NCBI GenBank assembly: GCA_040384265.1
Contig: JAZKJM010000003.1
Span: 141,919 to 205,918 of the forward strand
Origin: Pseudomonadota bacterium
GTDB taxonomy: Bacteria > Pseudomonadota > Alphaproteobacteria > Rickettsiales > UBA3002
Direction of reading: 5' to 3'
DNA: 64,000 nucleotides
Shown here: positions 7,678 through 32,230 of the stretch, piece by piece
How positions within the stretch are numbered: position 1 is the first letter of the stretch
Layout of the letters: every line of letters starts with the position of its first letter
The notes under the pieces: generated by a model
Told to the model about the DNA's origin: nothing
Database searches by the model: none
The model's input: only the letters and a program-made list of their open reading frames with translations
Made by a program: the position numbers and the translations under genes

Positions 7678-7840
7678 ATCTCCATAGCTCCCCCCTTGAG
7701 GGGGAGCCAAATCCCGAGAGGGATTTGGTGGGGGGCCTCTCTCCACTTGCTCCAACGTCTGAGTATGCTGCACCATTATCCCCCCACCAAATCGCCGAAG
7801 GGGCGATTTGGCTCCCCCTCAAGGGGGGAGCTATGGAGAT
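7678..7840. repeat. long nested inverted repeat between yejB and yejE
   Basis: The left arm (7678-7735) and right arm (7780-7840) are near-perfect reverse complements separated by 44 nt. Each arm opens with ATCTCCATAGCTCCCCCC-type sequence and contains its own inner hairpin flanked by CCAAATC/GATTTGG. It fills the gap in an operon whose other junctions all overlap by ATGA. The right arm ends on GGAGAT directly before the yejE start and supplies its ribosome binding site. It also leaves an open 65-codon frame (7650-7847) that starts behind a GGGGAG box and ends overlapping the yejE ATG. No terminal T-run is visible, so readthrough transcription is possible. Confidence 0.9.
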
Positions 7841-12271: not shown

Positions 12272-12889
12272 CTATACGGTGTGCGTTTTCGACAACTCAG
12301 TTATCGATATTATGCTTGATTTTTTATTGGTTAAGCTAGGAAATAGCTGGTGCTGATACGACCAGTCATTGCCGGTCGCTGCTAACTCATTAGCGAAGTT
12401 TTCGCCCTTTGGGAAGAGGCAAATTGCACCCGGCTGCAGCAGCGGGTAGGCCATCGCCAACAGCTCTTTAAGGGGGGCGAGGGCTCGTGCCGTCACCACA
12501 TCGAAGCGGGCGGTGAGGGTGTGCAGGTCCTTTGCTTCAATGGTTACATGGTCCAGCGCCAAAGCGCGTTTGACTTCCTGCAGGAAGGCCGATTTGCGTT
12601 GATCGATTTCCACCAACGTCACCGCAATATCCGGTCGGGCGATGGCGAGGATCATCCCGGGCAATCCGGCACCGCTTCCCAGATCGGCCAGTGAGGTGGC
12701 GGTGGGGGGGAGGAGGGGTAAAAGCTGGAGCGCATCCTCAACATGGCGGGACCAAACATCCGATTCCGTGGTCGGGCCGATCAAATTGATCTTCGCGTTC
12801 CACTTTAAAAGCAGTCCGACATATCCTTCTAAATGTGAAAATGTTTCACGTGAAACATTTTGGGAAAGATGCGTCGGGGAATGGGCCAT
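12272..12889 (-). CDS. rsmG: 16S rRNA m7G527 methyltransferase RsmG (GidB)
   Basis: About 205 residues. RsmG uses S-adenosylmethionine to methylate G527 of 16S rRNA. The SAM-binding motif 'LADLGSGAGLPGMILAI' is near residue 65, followed by 'VEIDQRKSAFLQEV' and the conserved 'VVTARALAPL' and 'FPKGEN'. Several in-frame ATGs exist (12925, 12901, 12889); 12889 gives the usual family length and has GGAA 6 nt upstream. The codons for 'NVSRET' near the N-terminus (residues 10-15) are a perfect parS site, so this gene doubles as a ParB-binding locus. Start choice is the weak point. Confidence 0.93.
   Translation of the reverse strand: MAHSPTHLSQNVSRETFSHLEGYVGLLLKWNAKINLIGPTTESDVWSRHVEDALQLLPLLPPTATSLADLGSGAGLPGMILAIARPDIAVTLVEIDQRKSAFLQEVKRALALDHVTIEAKDLHTLTARFDVVTARALAPLKELLAMAYPLLQPGAICLFPKGENFANELAATGNDWSYQHQLFPSLTNKKSSIISITELSKTHTV
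12842..12857. promoter_or_regulatory. parS site 1 (inside rsmG)
   Basis: Perfect 16/16 match to the conserved bacterial parS palindrome TGTTTCACGTGAAACA. It lies within the 5' part of rsmG and codes there for the residues NVSRET. Confidence 0.97.
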
Positions 12890-12933
12890 GGGTGATTCCA
12901 TAGTTGAAAAGGGTCGTCCTGTCATGTTCAAAA

Positions 12934-12949
12934 TGTTTCACGTGAAACA
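12934..12949. promoter_or_regulatory. parS site 2 (mnmG-rsmG gap)
   Basis: Perfect 16/16 parS palindrome in the short gap between the mnmG stop codon and the rsmG start region, 76 bp from the centre-equivalent of site 1's end. Paired close sites such as these can nucleate ParB efficiently. Confidence 0.96.
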
Positions 12950-12960
12950 TTTTGGGGTCG

Positions 12961-14823
12961 TTATGCCGATGCCGAACGCCGTTTCATGAAAGTCAAAATA
13001 GCAATAATTGCCGCTGGGGTCACACCGGGAATCCGACTGGCCGCTCCGAGGGTCGGCGGTTTTGCCTGTTTCAATTTGTGACGAATCTCGTTGGAGAGGG
13101 AGCCGACATCGTCGTAATCCAACGCATCCGGAATCTGCAATTGTTCGTCTGCTTTGAACAAATCAATGTCCGATTGCTGACGGGCAAGATAAGATTTATA
13201 GACCGCTTCGATCTCGATTTGTTCCCGAACATCGGCCCGGTAACCCTTCATCGCCGGCCAGATGTCACTGAGTTGATCGAAGCCAATGCCCGTATAGCCT
13301 AGCAAATCAAGGGCGGTGCGTTTCACGCCATCCCGATTAATCGGCAATCCATACTCGGCGGCCTTGTTGGGTGAAATTGTTTCACGTGAAACATTTTGGA
13401 AGGCTTCGGCCAGTAATTTTTTCTTCTCTAAAAAACGCTCGGCGCGAATCGAGCCGATGCAACCAATCGCCAACCCAAGGTCGGTCAATCGCAAGTCCGC
13501 ATTGTCGGGACGGAGGGTCAACCGGTATTCCGACCGCGAGGTGAACATCCGATATGGCTCCTGAGTCCCCAGTGTCGTCAGATCATCGATCATCACCCCA
13601 ATATAGGCTTGGGCACGGTCGATAATAAATGGCGCGGAGCTAGAAGCGGCGAGGGCAGCATTTAAACCAGCAACCAAACCCTGACCGCCGGCTTCTTCAT
13701 ACCCGGTCGTTCCGTTAATTTGCCCGGCGAGATAGAGCCCGCTGACCTTTTTGGTTTCGAGCGTCGGCTTCAGCTCACGCGGATCGACATAATCATACTC
13801 AATCGCATAGCCGGGGCGGATGACATGGGCGTTCTCAAGACCCGGGATGGTTTTGATCATCGCCAACTGAACATCCTCGGGCAGGGAGGTCGAAATACCG
13901 TTCGGGTAGACGGTTACATCGTCCAATCCCTCGGGTTCGAGAAAAATCTGGTGACGCTCGCGGTCGGCGAAACGGACGATTTTATCCTCGATCGACGGGC
14001 AATAGCGCGGGCCGGAGGACTTGATTTGCCCGGAATACATCGGCGAACGATGGACATTTTCGCGAATGATTTCATGTGTTTTTTCAGTGGTATGGGTAAT
14101 GTAGCAGGTAATTTGCGGCACCCGTACTTCATCCGTCAGGTAGGAGAATGGCACCGGCGGATTATCGCCGGGCTGGGGGGTGAGAATGCCCCAATTAATC
14201 GTCGTCCCATCCAGCCGAGCGGGGGTGCCGGTCTTCAACCGGCCCATGGTGAGGCCGAGGCCGCGAATGGAATCGGCAAGAGCGATGGAGGGGGCTTCAC
14301 CAAAACGCCCGGCGGCGCGTTGGCTCTCACCGCAATGGATGAGGCCGTTGAGGAAGGTGCCGGTGGTGAGGACGACATGGCCCGTTTCATACCGGGTGCC
14401 GGAGGCGCCGATGACGGCCTGCACGGCGCCGTTTTCCATGACAATATCATCCGCGCTGTCTTCAAGAATGGTCAGATTGTCATATTCACCGAGAATGGAT
14501 TGGACAGCTTCGCGGTAGAGTTTGCGGTCGGCCTGGGCGCGCGGGCCACGAACGGCGGGGCCTTTGCTGGCGTTGAGCATTTTGTAATGGATGCCGGCAC
14601 GGTCAATCGCGCGGCCCATCACGCCATCAAGCGCGTCGATTTCGCGCACCAGCGTTCCCTTGGCGATGCCGCCAATGGCCGGGTTGCACGACATTTCGCC
14701 CACCGTGGCGCGTTGATGGGTGAGCAGGCAGGTGGTTGCACCGAGCCGGGCGGCGGCCGCAGCCGCTTCCGTGCCAGCATGGCCACCACCGATGACGATT
14801 ACATCAAAACGCTTCGTATTCAT
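12961..14823 (-). CDS. mnmG: tRNA U34 carboxymethylaminomethyl-modification enzyme, FAD subunit
   Basis: A 620-residue MnmG/GidA. The N-terminal FAD motif is '[17 protein letters not shown]', followed by '[20 protein letters not shown]', the insertion domain and the conserved '[17 protein letters not shown]' segment. The C-terminal helical domain binds MnmE. With MnmE it installs cmnm5U at the wobble position of some tRNAs. The residues 'NVSRET' near position 480 are encoded by parS site 3, an insertion into an otherwise poorly conserved surface region. It lies between mnmE and rsmG on the same strand. Confidence 0.97.
13378..13393. promoter_or_regulatory. parS site 3 (inside mnmG)
   Basis: Perfect 16/16 parS palindrome within the mnmG coding region, translated as part of 'QNVSRETI'. 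The same hexapeptide NVSRET arises from parS site 1 in rsmG. Confidence 0.97.
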
Positions 14824-14992
14824 ATGGTTATCCTTGATATCGCAACGTAGACATCGTTAGAAAGCTATTTTTATGGCCAATTTCGTCGTCCTTTTTGTGC
14901 TCAGTCGGTCATGTAGCGCCGCTACACTCCCTCCCTCCGCGCAAAAACTCCTAGAACTTGTCTCATAAAAATACCTTTTTACCGATGTCTAT

Positions 14993-15008
14993 TGTTTCAC
15001 GTGAAACA
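14993..15008. promoter_or_regulatory. parS site 4 (mnmE-mnmG intergenic)
   Basis: Perfect 16/16 parS palindrome, 14 bp beyond the mnmE stop codon, in the 199-bp gap between mnmE and mnmG. No other feature was recognised in that gap. Confidence 0.97.
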
Positions 15009-15022
15009 TTCGGCCCAACCGG

Positions 15023-16351: not shown

Positions 16352-16892
16352 GGCGGCGATGTAGGCGCAAATGGGGGTTTTAGCAAGTTTTGGTTGGCGG
16401 CGTTGCCGCGTGGGGGCGGAGTCGCCCCCGCTACCGCGCCCCCTCGTTCGCGCTTACGCGCTCCGGCTCCGCGCGGTCGCGCTACGCACGGCTAAGTGGG
16501 GGCTATGCATTTTCTTTAGTGTTCCCTCGTGTCCCCCACCTCCCTCCCTTGTCATCCCGGCCTTGTGCCGGACCCGGAGCGTAGCGGAGAGAGGCGCAGC
16601 CAATCCGGCGCGCGTGAGCGCAGGCAATACTACCAGCGGTGAAGCGGGACCCCGCCGTGCGACGGGGTGACAGTGAATGGGAGGGGGCTCCCGGTGTGGC
16701 GCGGCCATATTAGTTGCGCTCCGCGCGCGATGGATCCTGAAACAAGTTCAGGATGACGTGGAGGAAGTGGGGGACACGAGGGAACAGCAAAGAAAATGGA
16801 TAGCCTCAGGTAAGCCGAGGGAGGCCAAGGGACGACCCGCGTAGCGGCGGGGGTCAGCGTAGCGTAGGGGCCAAGGGCCCCTTCAAGCAACC
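16352..16892. repeat. large mosaic inverted-repeat element between holA and mnmE
   Basis: There is no gene in these 541 bp. A left half (about 16390-16560) reads: a GCCGCGTGGGGGCGGAGTCG-type hairpin, a GCGCTACGCACGGC block (16479-16492), CTATGCATTTTCTTT, then TGTTCCCTCGTGTCCCCCAC and a TGTCATCCCGG hairpin. After a centre with GGGACCCCGCCGTGCGACGG (about 16649), the right half (about 16750-16850) repeats the left in inverse order: GTGGGGGACACGAGGGAACA, AAAGAAAATGGATAGCCTC, then the GACCCGCGTAGCGGCGGG hairpin. The same modules in the same order recur at 24850-25390, 30475-30725 and 61134-61400. The last hairpin runs into the holA stop codon. Confidence 0.9.
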
Positions 16893-30389: not shown

Positions 30390-30760
30390 GCGGGAATCCT
30401 TGGGGCTAGTGGGTACGGGGTCTTTTTCGCGCGCGGAATCTATGGGCGGTTGCGTGGTTATGCAAGCGGTTTTTTGGTTGGCGGCTTTGGTGCGTGGGGG
30501 CGTACCCGACCCCACTACCCTCTCACTCGTTCGCCTTCGGCTCCGGCTCCGCGCTACGCACGGCTTGCCTGAGACTATGCTTTTTCTTTGCTGATCCCCT
30601 TAGTCCTCTACCCTCTTCGTTGTCATGCCAGCGTAGGCTGGCATCCATCGCGCGAATGCGCAGGCAATACTAACAGCGGTGAAGCGGGACCCCGTCGTGC
30701 GACGGGGTGACACTGTGTGGGAGGGGGGGGGGTGAAGCCAGCGGCCCCTTCAAGTAAATA
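30390..30760. repeat. mosaic repeat element between dnaQ and atpH
   Basis: No gene in 371 bp. The part next to atpH (30390-30470) must hold the F1 operon promoter, but I cannot place a clear -35/-10. From about 30478 the modules seen elsewhere follow: a GTGCGTGGGGGCGTACCCGA unit, TTCGCCTTCGGCTCCGGCTC, GCGCTACGCACGGC (30551-30564), TTGCCTGAGACTATGC, TTTTTCTTTGCTGATCCCCT, a TGTCATGCCAGCGTAGGCTG hairpin and GGGACCCCGTCGTGCGACGG with GGTGACA. It ends in a short run of G's at 30720-30731. Only the left half of the full element is present. Confidence 0.85.
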
Positions 30761-31522: not shown

Positions 31523-32230
31523 TTATAATCCCCACTCGCGCATCAACGCCATCACGATGCGGCGGGTGGCGGCTTTGCCGATGGCGGTGGGGATGACGAT
31601 ATCCGCCGCCGCGTTGCGGATGGGGGCGGGCAACTGGCGGGCGAGCAGGCGTTGCCATTTTTCTTCCGTCATGCCGGGGCGGGCGAAGGCGCGGGTGCGC
31701 CGGTGGTGCAAAGGCGCGTGGGCGACGATGACGATATCGCATAGCTGGTGCGCATCGGTTTCGAACAGCAGCGGAATATCGAGGATGACGGCGCGCAAGC
31801 GGTTGCGGCGGGCGGCGGCGATGGTGCTTTCCTCGACCGCGCGGACACGCGGGTGGAGGATGGTTTCGAGAGTGGCGAGGGCTTCGGGGTGGCGGGTGAT
31901 GTGCGCGGCGAGGCGGGCACGGTCGATGGATACACTGTCACCCCGTCGCATGACGGGGTCCATCTGCACCACCGAAGAAAGGTGGGCCCCGTCATGCGAC
32001 GGGGTGACAGTGTGGGGGCTGGTAACAGCTTCGGGAAACACGGCGGCGATGGCGGCGATGGTGTCGCGGTCGTTGCGCATCAGGTCATGGACGATGGTGT
32101 CGGCATCCAGATGGAGGATGCCGCGGCCGGCGAACATGCGGGCGAGGGTGGATTTTCCGCTCGCCATGCCACCCGTCACACCGATGATGAGTGGTTTGAT
32201 GGAAGGGGCAGGATGGTTGTCCCCACTCAT
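31523..32230 (-). CDS. coaE: dephospho-CoA kinase with in-frame palindromic insertion
   Basis: A 235-residue CoaE that phosphorylates dephospho-CoA in the last step of CoA synthesis. The P-loop 'GVTGGMASGKST' is at residues 17-28, followed by 'HLDADTIVHDLM', 'LETILHPRVRAVEE', 'DIPLLFETDAHQLCDIVIV' and 'ARQLPAPIRNAAADIVI'. The family is usually about 200 residues. The extra residues are about 72-100 ('HTVTPSHDGAHLSSVVQ', then 'MDPVMRRGDSV') and are encoded by a perfect inverted repeat (31932-32013) identical in type to the intergenic elements. The insertion falls between the 'FPEAV' and 'IDRARLA' motifs. The ATG overlaps the aroE stop. Confidence 0.93.
   Translation of the reverse strand: MSGDNHPAPSIKPLIIGVTGGMASGKSTLARMFAGRGILHLDADTIVHDLMRNDRDTIAAIAAVFPEAVTSPHTVTPSHDGAHLSSVVQMDPVMRRGDSVSIDRARLAAHITRHPEALATLETILHPRVRAVEESTIAAARRNRLRAVILDIPLLFETDAHQLCDIVIVAHAPLHHRRTRAFARPGMTEEKWQRLLARQLPAPIRNAAADIVIPTAIGKAATRRIVMALMREWGL
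31932..32013. repeat. protein-coding palindromic element inside coaE
   Basis: The 27-nt arms at 31932-31958 and 31987-32013 are perfect reverse complements around a 28-nt centre. Each arm also folds alone (CCCCGTCGCATGACGGGG). The whole is read through in frame by coaE without a stop. The arm sequence is the same module as GGGACCCCGTCGTGCGACGG/GGTGACA in the intergenic repeats near 16650 and 30685. Confidence 0.95.

Follow-up and report, generated by a model that had tools for sequence, protein, structure and literature searches.

An in-frame CGTC-type REP dimer in the dephospho-CoA kinase gene of a GC-rich alphaproteobacterium

REPINs and GTAG REPs are moved by RAYT transposases. The CGTC REPs (families CGTC-1 to CGTC-4), to which the repeat described here is closest, are characterized in the main text of Di Nocera et al. 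2013 (PMC3733652) as units with a CGTC or TGTC tag, a stem of 8–9 bp, a loop of 4–5 nt and a tail that is mostly CCA, which form head-to-head dimers. That text reports the first two stem positions to be 'almost invariably' A-T and the repeats to be mostly alphaproteobacterial and without an associated transposase (none was known in 2013), and has RPE-6 and RPE-4 (conorii) correspond to CGTC REPs. It also places REPs within genes of several species, where they often code for 20–30 residues; coding CGTC REPs outside Rickettsia are already described there, and recB of two Xanthomonas species is said to have different REPs at about one site. A term search of this main text, to which the target list in Additional file 3 is external, returned no dephospho, coaE or inositol, and we found no report of REPs in coaE among the titles and abstract beginnings listed in searches of the open-access literature.

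We analysed a window of 64 kb (the whole stretch of DNA studied, whose positions are used below) from a genome of 2,004,024 bases (2.0 Mb; 9 contigs; 95.49% complete), labelled G000. The window holds coaE, generally regarded as an essential gene and recognized by its matches to PF01121 (E 9e-34) and TIGR00152 (101.2 bits, where 65.55 would suffice); its likely start is the ATG at 32230, and it overlaps the aroE stop. A first-pass annotation had claimed a perfect palindrome in frame in this gene, with extra residues at 72–100. Both 27-nt arms are confirmed, and the insert lies where it had been placed, with the element proper occupying codons 74–99:

31523..32230, minus strand: coaE, dephospho-CoA kinase, 235 aa (PF01121, TIGR00152), with its stop codon at 31523–31525
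31932..31958, no strand: left perfect arm, 27 nt, of which 4 nt lie beyond the element
31936..32009, no strand: head-to-head REP dimer TGTC...GACA within coaE, 74 nt, codons 74–99
31936..31962, plus strand: REP unit 1 of the dimer, with tag TGTC, stem ACCCCGTC/GACGGGGT, loop GCAT and tail CCA
31963..31982, no strand: spacer of 20 nt separating units 1 and 2
31983..32009, minus strand: REP unit 2 of the dimer (unit 1 inverted), with tail CCA
31987..32013, no strand: right perfect arm, 27 nt, of which 4 nt lie beyond the element

The arms reach 34 nt at 94% complementarity. Each half of the dimer forms its own small hairpin, with the tags outermost, and a change of the last stem base from T to C leaves unit 2 with 7/8 stem pairs. 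On the coding strand, the RNA fold of the insert has an energy of -66.9 kcal/mol (z = -10.0; 0/200 shuffles equally good); an Rfam search of the window at gathering scores returned one tRNA and no match at the coaE repeat. The gene has gained 84 nt, namely the 74-nt element plus 10 nt outside it for which the element does not account; the reading frame is therefore preserved, and 28 residues are added. In its stop-free phase the element would read ...TVTPSHDGAHLSSVVQMDPVMRRGDS.... In the structure model of CoaE, whose best PDB matches are dephospho-CoA kinases, block means are 95–98 except at residues 1–10 (75) and 71–100 (66, 53, 58). In this otherwise confident model, the insert is a loop of low confidence that joins two strands.

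The coaE element has many relatives in its own genome. Used as a query against G000, it gave 86 matches on both strands, and 43 elements were counted in the 35 loci fetched around these matches. Strict head-to-head dimers make up 20/43; among the other 23/43, several carry a second unit of another type, and tail-to-tail pairs within 150 nt were absent from the G000 elements. The arm is the same module as in intergenic copies, as the first-pass annotation had it, and 71/74 bases are identical between the coaE copy and the intergenic copy at C5:240044. A degenerate unit pattern (≤2 mismatches) yielded 89 genome matches on both strands and 0 in the reversed control; these take in a second unit type, ATGCCAGC, and extra places beyond the 35 loci. 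The tag is TGTC in both coaE units and TGTC or CGTC in most G000 copies, the tail CCA follows both coaE stems and recurs in most copies, and the tag-adjacent flanks of the copies are C-rich (63 flanks). In the main G000 type the first stem pair is A-T and the second C-G; the ATGCCGTC type, which forms mixed dimers with the main type, has A-T at both. Since the element has the features of CGTC REPs bar the second stem pair, we regard it as a member of that class and not as a new kind. Two other units, of this or a related type, lie in the window:

30686..30712 (C3:172604-172630), minus strand: single REP unit of the coaE type with 2 mismatches, intergenic, past the 3' end of a dnaQ-like gene
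16647..16671 (C3:158565), minus strand: REP unit of related type, between genes as judged by ORF and codon score

A second REP unit type, GTCATGCCAGCG..GGCTGGCATCC, occurs with its variants at window positions 729, 10477, 25117 and 61271, all intergenic by ORF and codon score. Repeats of other kinds are present as well: a 36-nt perfect inverted repeat (7678-7713 / 7805-7840, with 91 nt between the arms) that is not of REP type, and four copies of a TGTTTCACGTGAAACA palindrome at 12835-15014, which we take to resemble parS sites.

A search of a collection covering 84,980 species found the exact 27-nt unit in 29 stretches, whose titles name six alphaproteobacterial MAGs; records of the own or a very near genome may be absent from these counts. 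Two MAG records that carry this GC-rich unit, L090 and L086, are titled Rickettsia typhi and Rhizobium sp. Q54, names that may be wrong; the former is suspect because, according to the main text of Di Nocera et al. 2013 (PMC3733652), R. typhi has neither CGTC-1 nor CGTC-4 repeats.

The Y1 transposase (Y1_Tnp) had 0 matches in G000 at E 0.01, in a search that was positive in 6/14 control genomes, and movement of the element itself is therefore a reading of the pattern only. Target-site duplication was not apparent in 20 G000 dimers, of which 2, 1 and 0 share 2, 3 and 4 flanking bases directly.

Copies of the repeat sit mostly between genes. Placement in G000 was assessed from ORFs and codon score, and from Pfam for 10 chosen ORFs only. 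By these means two of the 43 elements, those in coaE and in a hisN-like gene, were found to lie in conserved genes, and 41/43 were not found inside one. Four of the 10 spanning ORFs put to Pfam have a domain (hisN-like, PurK, IF-1 and aminotransferase IV) and six have none, and the domain spans the repeat in just one of the four, the hisN-like ORF. The PurK, IF-1 and aminotransferase IV ORFs were rejected as coding copies: they are in frame, but the domain and a later ATG follow the repeat. The remaining 38/43 elements were judged by ORF and codon score; the spanning ORFs of five of them are without a Pfam match. No further convincing coding copy emerged, by ORF and codon score, from 14 places of the wider pattern and 5 places in the window (C5:348943 and C7:21700 have spanning ORFs and were judged without Pfam), and a pattern match with 2 mismatches within a gene, C1:39357, appears to be due to chance. 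The first-pass reading of the element as an in-frame repeat of the Rickettsia kind is supported, in that it is repeated, in frame in coaE and absent from most relatives; it needs amending in that the repeat is mainly intergenic. With 2/43 elements in conserved genes, we see an ordinary REP dimer, coding at times, and not mainly a protein-coding repeat. In 40 dimer strands of G000, the three phases are open in 3, 30 and 20 cases, so an open reading is available to dimers that become inserted.

An order-wide search of 262 genomes gave 110 matching at E 1e-8, and the CoaE alignment, from which the duplicate loci L159, L164 and L166 were dropped, has 110 rows: one for the window and one for each of 109 distinct genomes. 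The loop that holds the insert has 7 residues in 97/110 rows, 8 in four and 9 in two; shorter loops are found in G080 (2 residues), G246 (4) and G041 (6). The gap expected in relatives is therefore present, and a loop ancestral to all of them is excluded. REP dimers occupy the loop in three genomes, which brings it to 35 residues in G000, 32 in G004 and 37 in G110. In G182, for which the automatic count is 14 (the motif is misaligned), a long insert is seen by eye; it is AT-rich, lies in the same loop (L174) and is not a REP. In a first alignment of 17 relatives, 16 lack an insert; the exception is the congener G004, whose REP dimer at this place differs from that of G000. Close neighbours of the carriers have none: G001 and G003, genus mates of G000, are without it, as are G036, G056 and G103, genus mates of G110. 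The congener G002 had no match at E 1e-8 and stands outside the 110 rows; its divergent CoaE-like protein has a 7-residue loop. G110 belongs to another family than G000 and G004.

The three dimers differ in sequence and in length (74 nt in G000, 69 nt in G004 and 87 nt in G110). The total gains of coaE are 84, 75 and 90 nt, respectively, all multiples of 3 and stop-free, and the tags start 23, 22 and 15 nt past the FP codons, that is, in phases 2, 1 and 0. In G004 the left unit is a changed form of the G000 type, and the right unit belongs to the ACCCCGCA type, which is recurrent in that genome; the G110 element is a dimer of types ACCCCGCA and ACCCCGTT.

A hairpin as stable as that predicted for the coaE RNA might be excised from the mRNA, or ribosomes might skip it, which would yield a protein without the loop; removal would need neither a length divisible by 3 nor freedom from stops, both of which all three genomes show, and we consider it highly improbable. 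That the insert is an assembly artefact, or that the gene is dying, would fit with genomes that are drafts, most of the relatives being fragmented. Against this, REPs occupy the same CoaE loop in independent assemblies, the coaE ORF is open and retains the residues that are invariant across 29 rows, and G000 has one full-length coaE match, so that we give this explanation hardly any credence.

We instead consider it very likely (probability of about 0.9) that a CGTC REP dimer was inserted in the 7-residue loop of coaE and is read through, leaving a disordered loop and a working enzyme. On this account, a REP dimer would land among the codons of the loop or close to them, those insertions with an open frame would outlast selection, and the ribosome would read through a stop-free phase of the dimer. 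The 28 added residues would then extend the tip of a beta-hairpin by a disordered loop, a position in which the enzyme would stay functional and the insertion be tolerated. Translation of the insert, as a flexible loop on the protein surface, is probable. We infer that CoaE activity is retained, that the insertion is nearly neutral and that it is recent on an evolutionary scale.

At least two REP insertions into coaE are needed to account for the three carriers, and three separate ones are more likely than two. With two, a single ancestral insertion in G000 and G004 would have been overwritten by conversion or replacement with other units. The two elements start ≤1 nt and end ≤3 nt apart relative to conserved codons, their right halves are in the same phase, and the make-up of the G004 element, a changed G000-type left half beside a right half common in G004, is what such overwriting would produce. 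A tree of 12 CoaE rows of the family does not reject G000 and G004 as a clade (p-AU 0.13). The best tree, however, joins G004 to G001 (81/87), which has no insert, and the left halves differ in phase (2 vs 1) as do the elements in length. Moreover, G000 contains a second copy near-identical to the one in coaE, and with a further match of the left-half type elsewhere in its genome (C53:1244), G004 could have gained a mixed dimer by an insertion of its own. A shared insertion would also leave G110, with its insert-free genus mates, unexplained. We therefore hold a common origin of the G000 and G004 elements to be possible but doubtful.

The hisN-like gene of G000, the second conserved gene with an in-frame copy, carries it within the conserved domain (PF00459, inositol-phosphatase family); in NCBIfam it matches HisN (histidinol-phosphatase) best, with 250.9 bits, below the cut-off of 275.15. 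The left half reads TVTPSHDG in both coding copies, and the hisN-like copy continues as TVTPSHDGVHL in the same phase as in coaE. In the model of HisN, two strands again flank a loop of low confidence at the insert (residues 141-160, at 48 and 66); confidence is likewise low at residues 21-40 (75 and 69). Among the 13 rows of the family compared is G013, from a different genus, whose hisN has a ATTCCCGC unit, decayed in part, 1 nt from the G000 insert site and in another phase; units like ATTCCCGC have 10 matches in G013 and 12 in G012. The HisN loops of G001 and G012 are somewhat longer, with no recognised REP unit. A different in-frame insert follows the GEEFG motif in hisN of G013 (L117) and G004 (L125); ~33 nt of it (GGCCAGRAGGCCGAGCCAGCCATGARCCGCGAT) are common to the two genera, in the same phase, and it is possibly another coding repeat.

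The coaE loop and the hisN hairpin might thus be preferred sites at which REP dimers land or are retained, either because the target is chosen or because the loop is beneficial. Dimers of different types fill the coaE loop of G000, G004 and G110 in three phases, different REPs lie ≤1 nt apart in two phases in hisN of G000 and G013, and the length of the CoaE loop is otherwise nearly constant. By a rough estimate (assuming ~2 coding insertions per genome, ~2000 tolerant loops and 109 other genomes), ~0.1 coincidences are expected at the coaE loop against 2 seen, an excess that is suggestive only and that shrinks to 1 seen if G000 and G004 share one event. The same pattern would result if few loops were tolerant, and the non-REP insert of G182 lies in the very same loop. 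Nor was a shared target motif found: the C-rich flanks are a trait of the G000 copies and are absent at coaE of G004. Site preference is therefore a tentative proposal, and the coaE loop is possibly a recurrent landing site for REPs. We regard as similarly speculative the broader notion that REP dimers of this order re-enter the same loops, favoured there by machinery or selection, as an exchangeable loop module.

G110 suggests that such repeats are read through in further genes. Its REP has 54 genome matches on both strands, 20 further places of which were fetched, and the best other copy, 99% identical to that in coaE, is the one in fmt. In fmt, addA and cobQ the repeat stands in an open frame as CHPALVAGSG...RPRYKNGVT or a close variant; family matches flanking it on both sides indicate that it lies inside these genes. 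Four ORFs with a prepilin-type N-terminus (among them L251, under the Pfam cut-off) and two with a hydrophobic N-terminal stretch have the repeat at the N-terminus. In these six ORFs (L251, L265, L266, L244, L272 and L282), the REP peptide directly precedes the prepilin-type or hydrophobic segment, and the N-terminus may bear the repeat or the true start may lie downstream of it. Among 16 genomes of the family, the repeat peptide has matches in three (38 in G110, 2 in G139 and 1 in G094).

The conversion of genomic repeats into pieces of protein is a known phenomenon, and these findings add one more lineage of GC-rich alphaproteobacteria to those with coding REPs. The coaE case is unusually easy to study: a loop normally of 7 residues, filled by three different repeats in three phases, is a natural experiment in which the peptide sequence is separable from the fact of insertion. 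It lets both the neutrality of insertions and the site choice of repeats be tested directly.

Compared with known systems, the G000 element agrees with CGTC REPs, as set out in the main text of Di Nocera et al. 2013 (PMC3733652), in its TGTC tag, 8-bp stem, 4-nt loop and CCA tail, in forming head-to-head dimers that are mainly intergenic, in that no transposase was found and in sometimes coding for 20–30 residues; the second stem pair is C-G in the main G000 unit and almost invariably A-T in CGTC REPs. Rickettsia palindromic elements are likewise palindromes in frame within conserved genes, a likeness to the G000 and G110 repeats of position and class; the G000 repeat differs in being GC-rich, with most copies intergenic. 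Since that main text assigns RPE-4 and RPE-6 to the CGTC REPs, the analogy to Rickettsia drawn in the first-pass annotation stands. REPINs, like the coaE dimer, consist of two inverted REP hairpins that make one long palindrome, whereas the tag in G000 is TGTC and not the GTAG of GTAG REPs, and G000 lacks a match to the Y1 transposase. The nearest parallel in a single gene is recB of Xanthomonas, in which, according to the same main text, related species have different REPs at roughly one position of the coding sequence; the coaE case, in contrast, spans two families of an order and all three phases.
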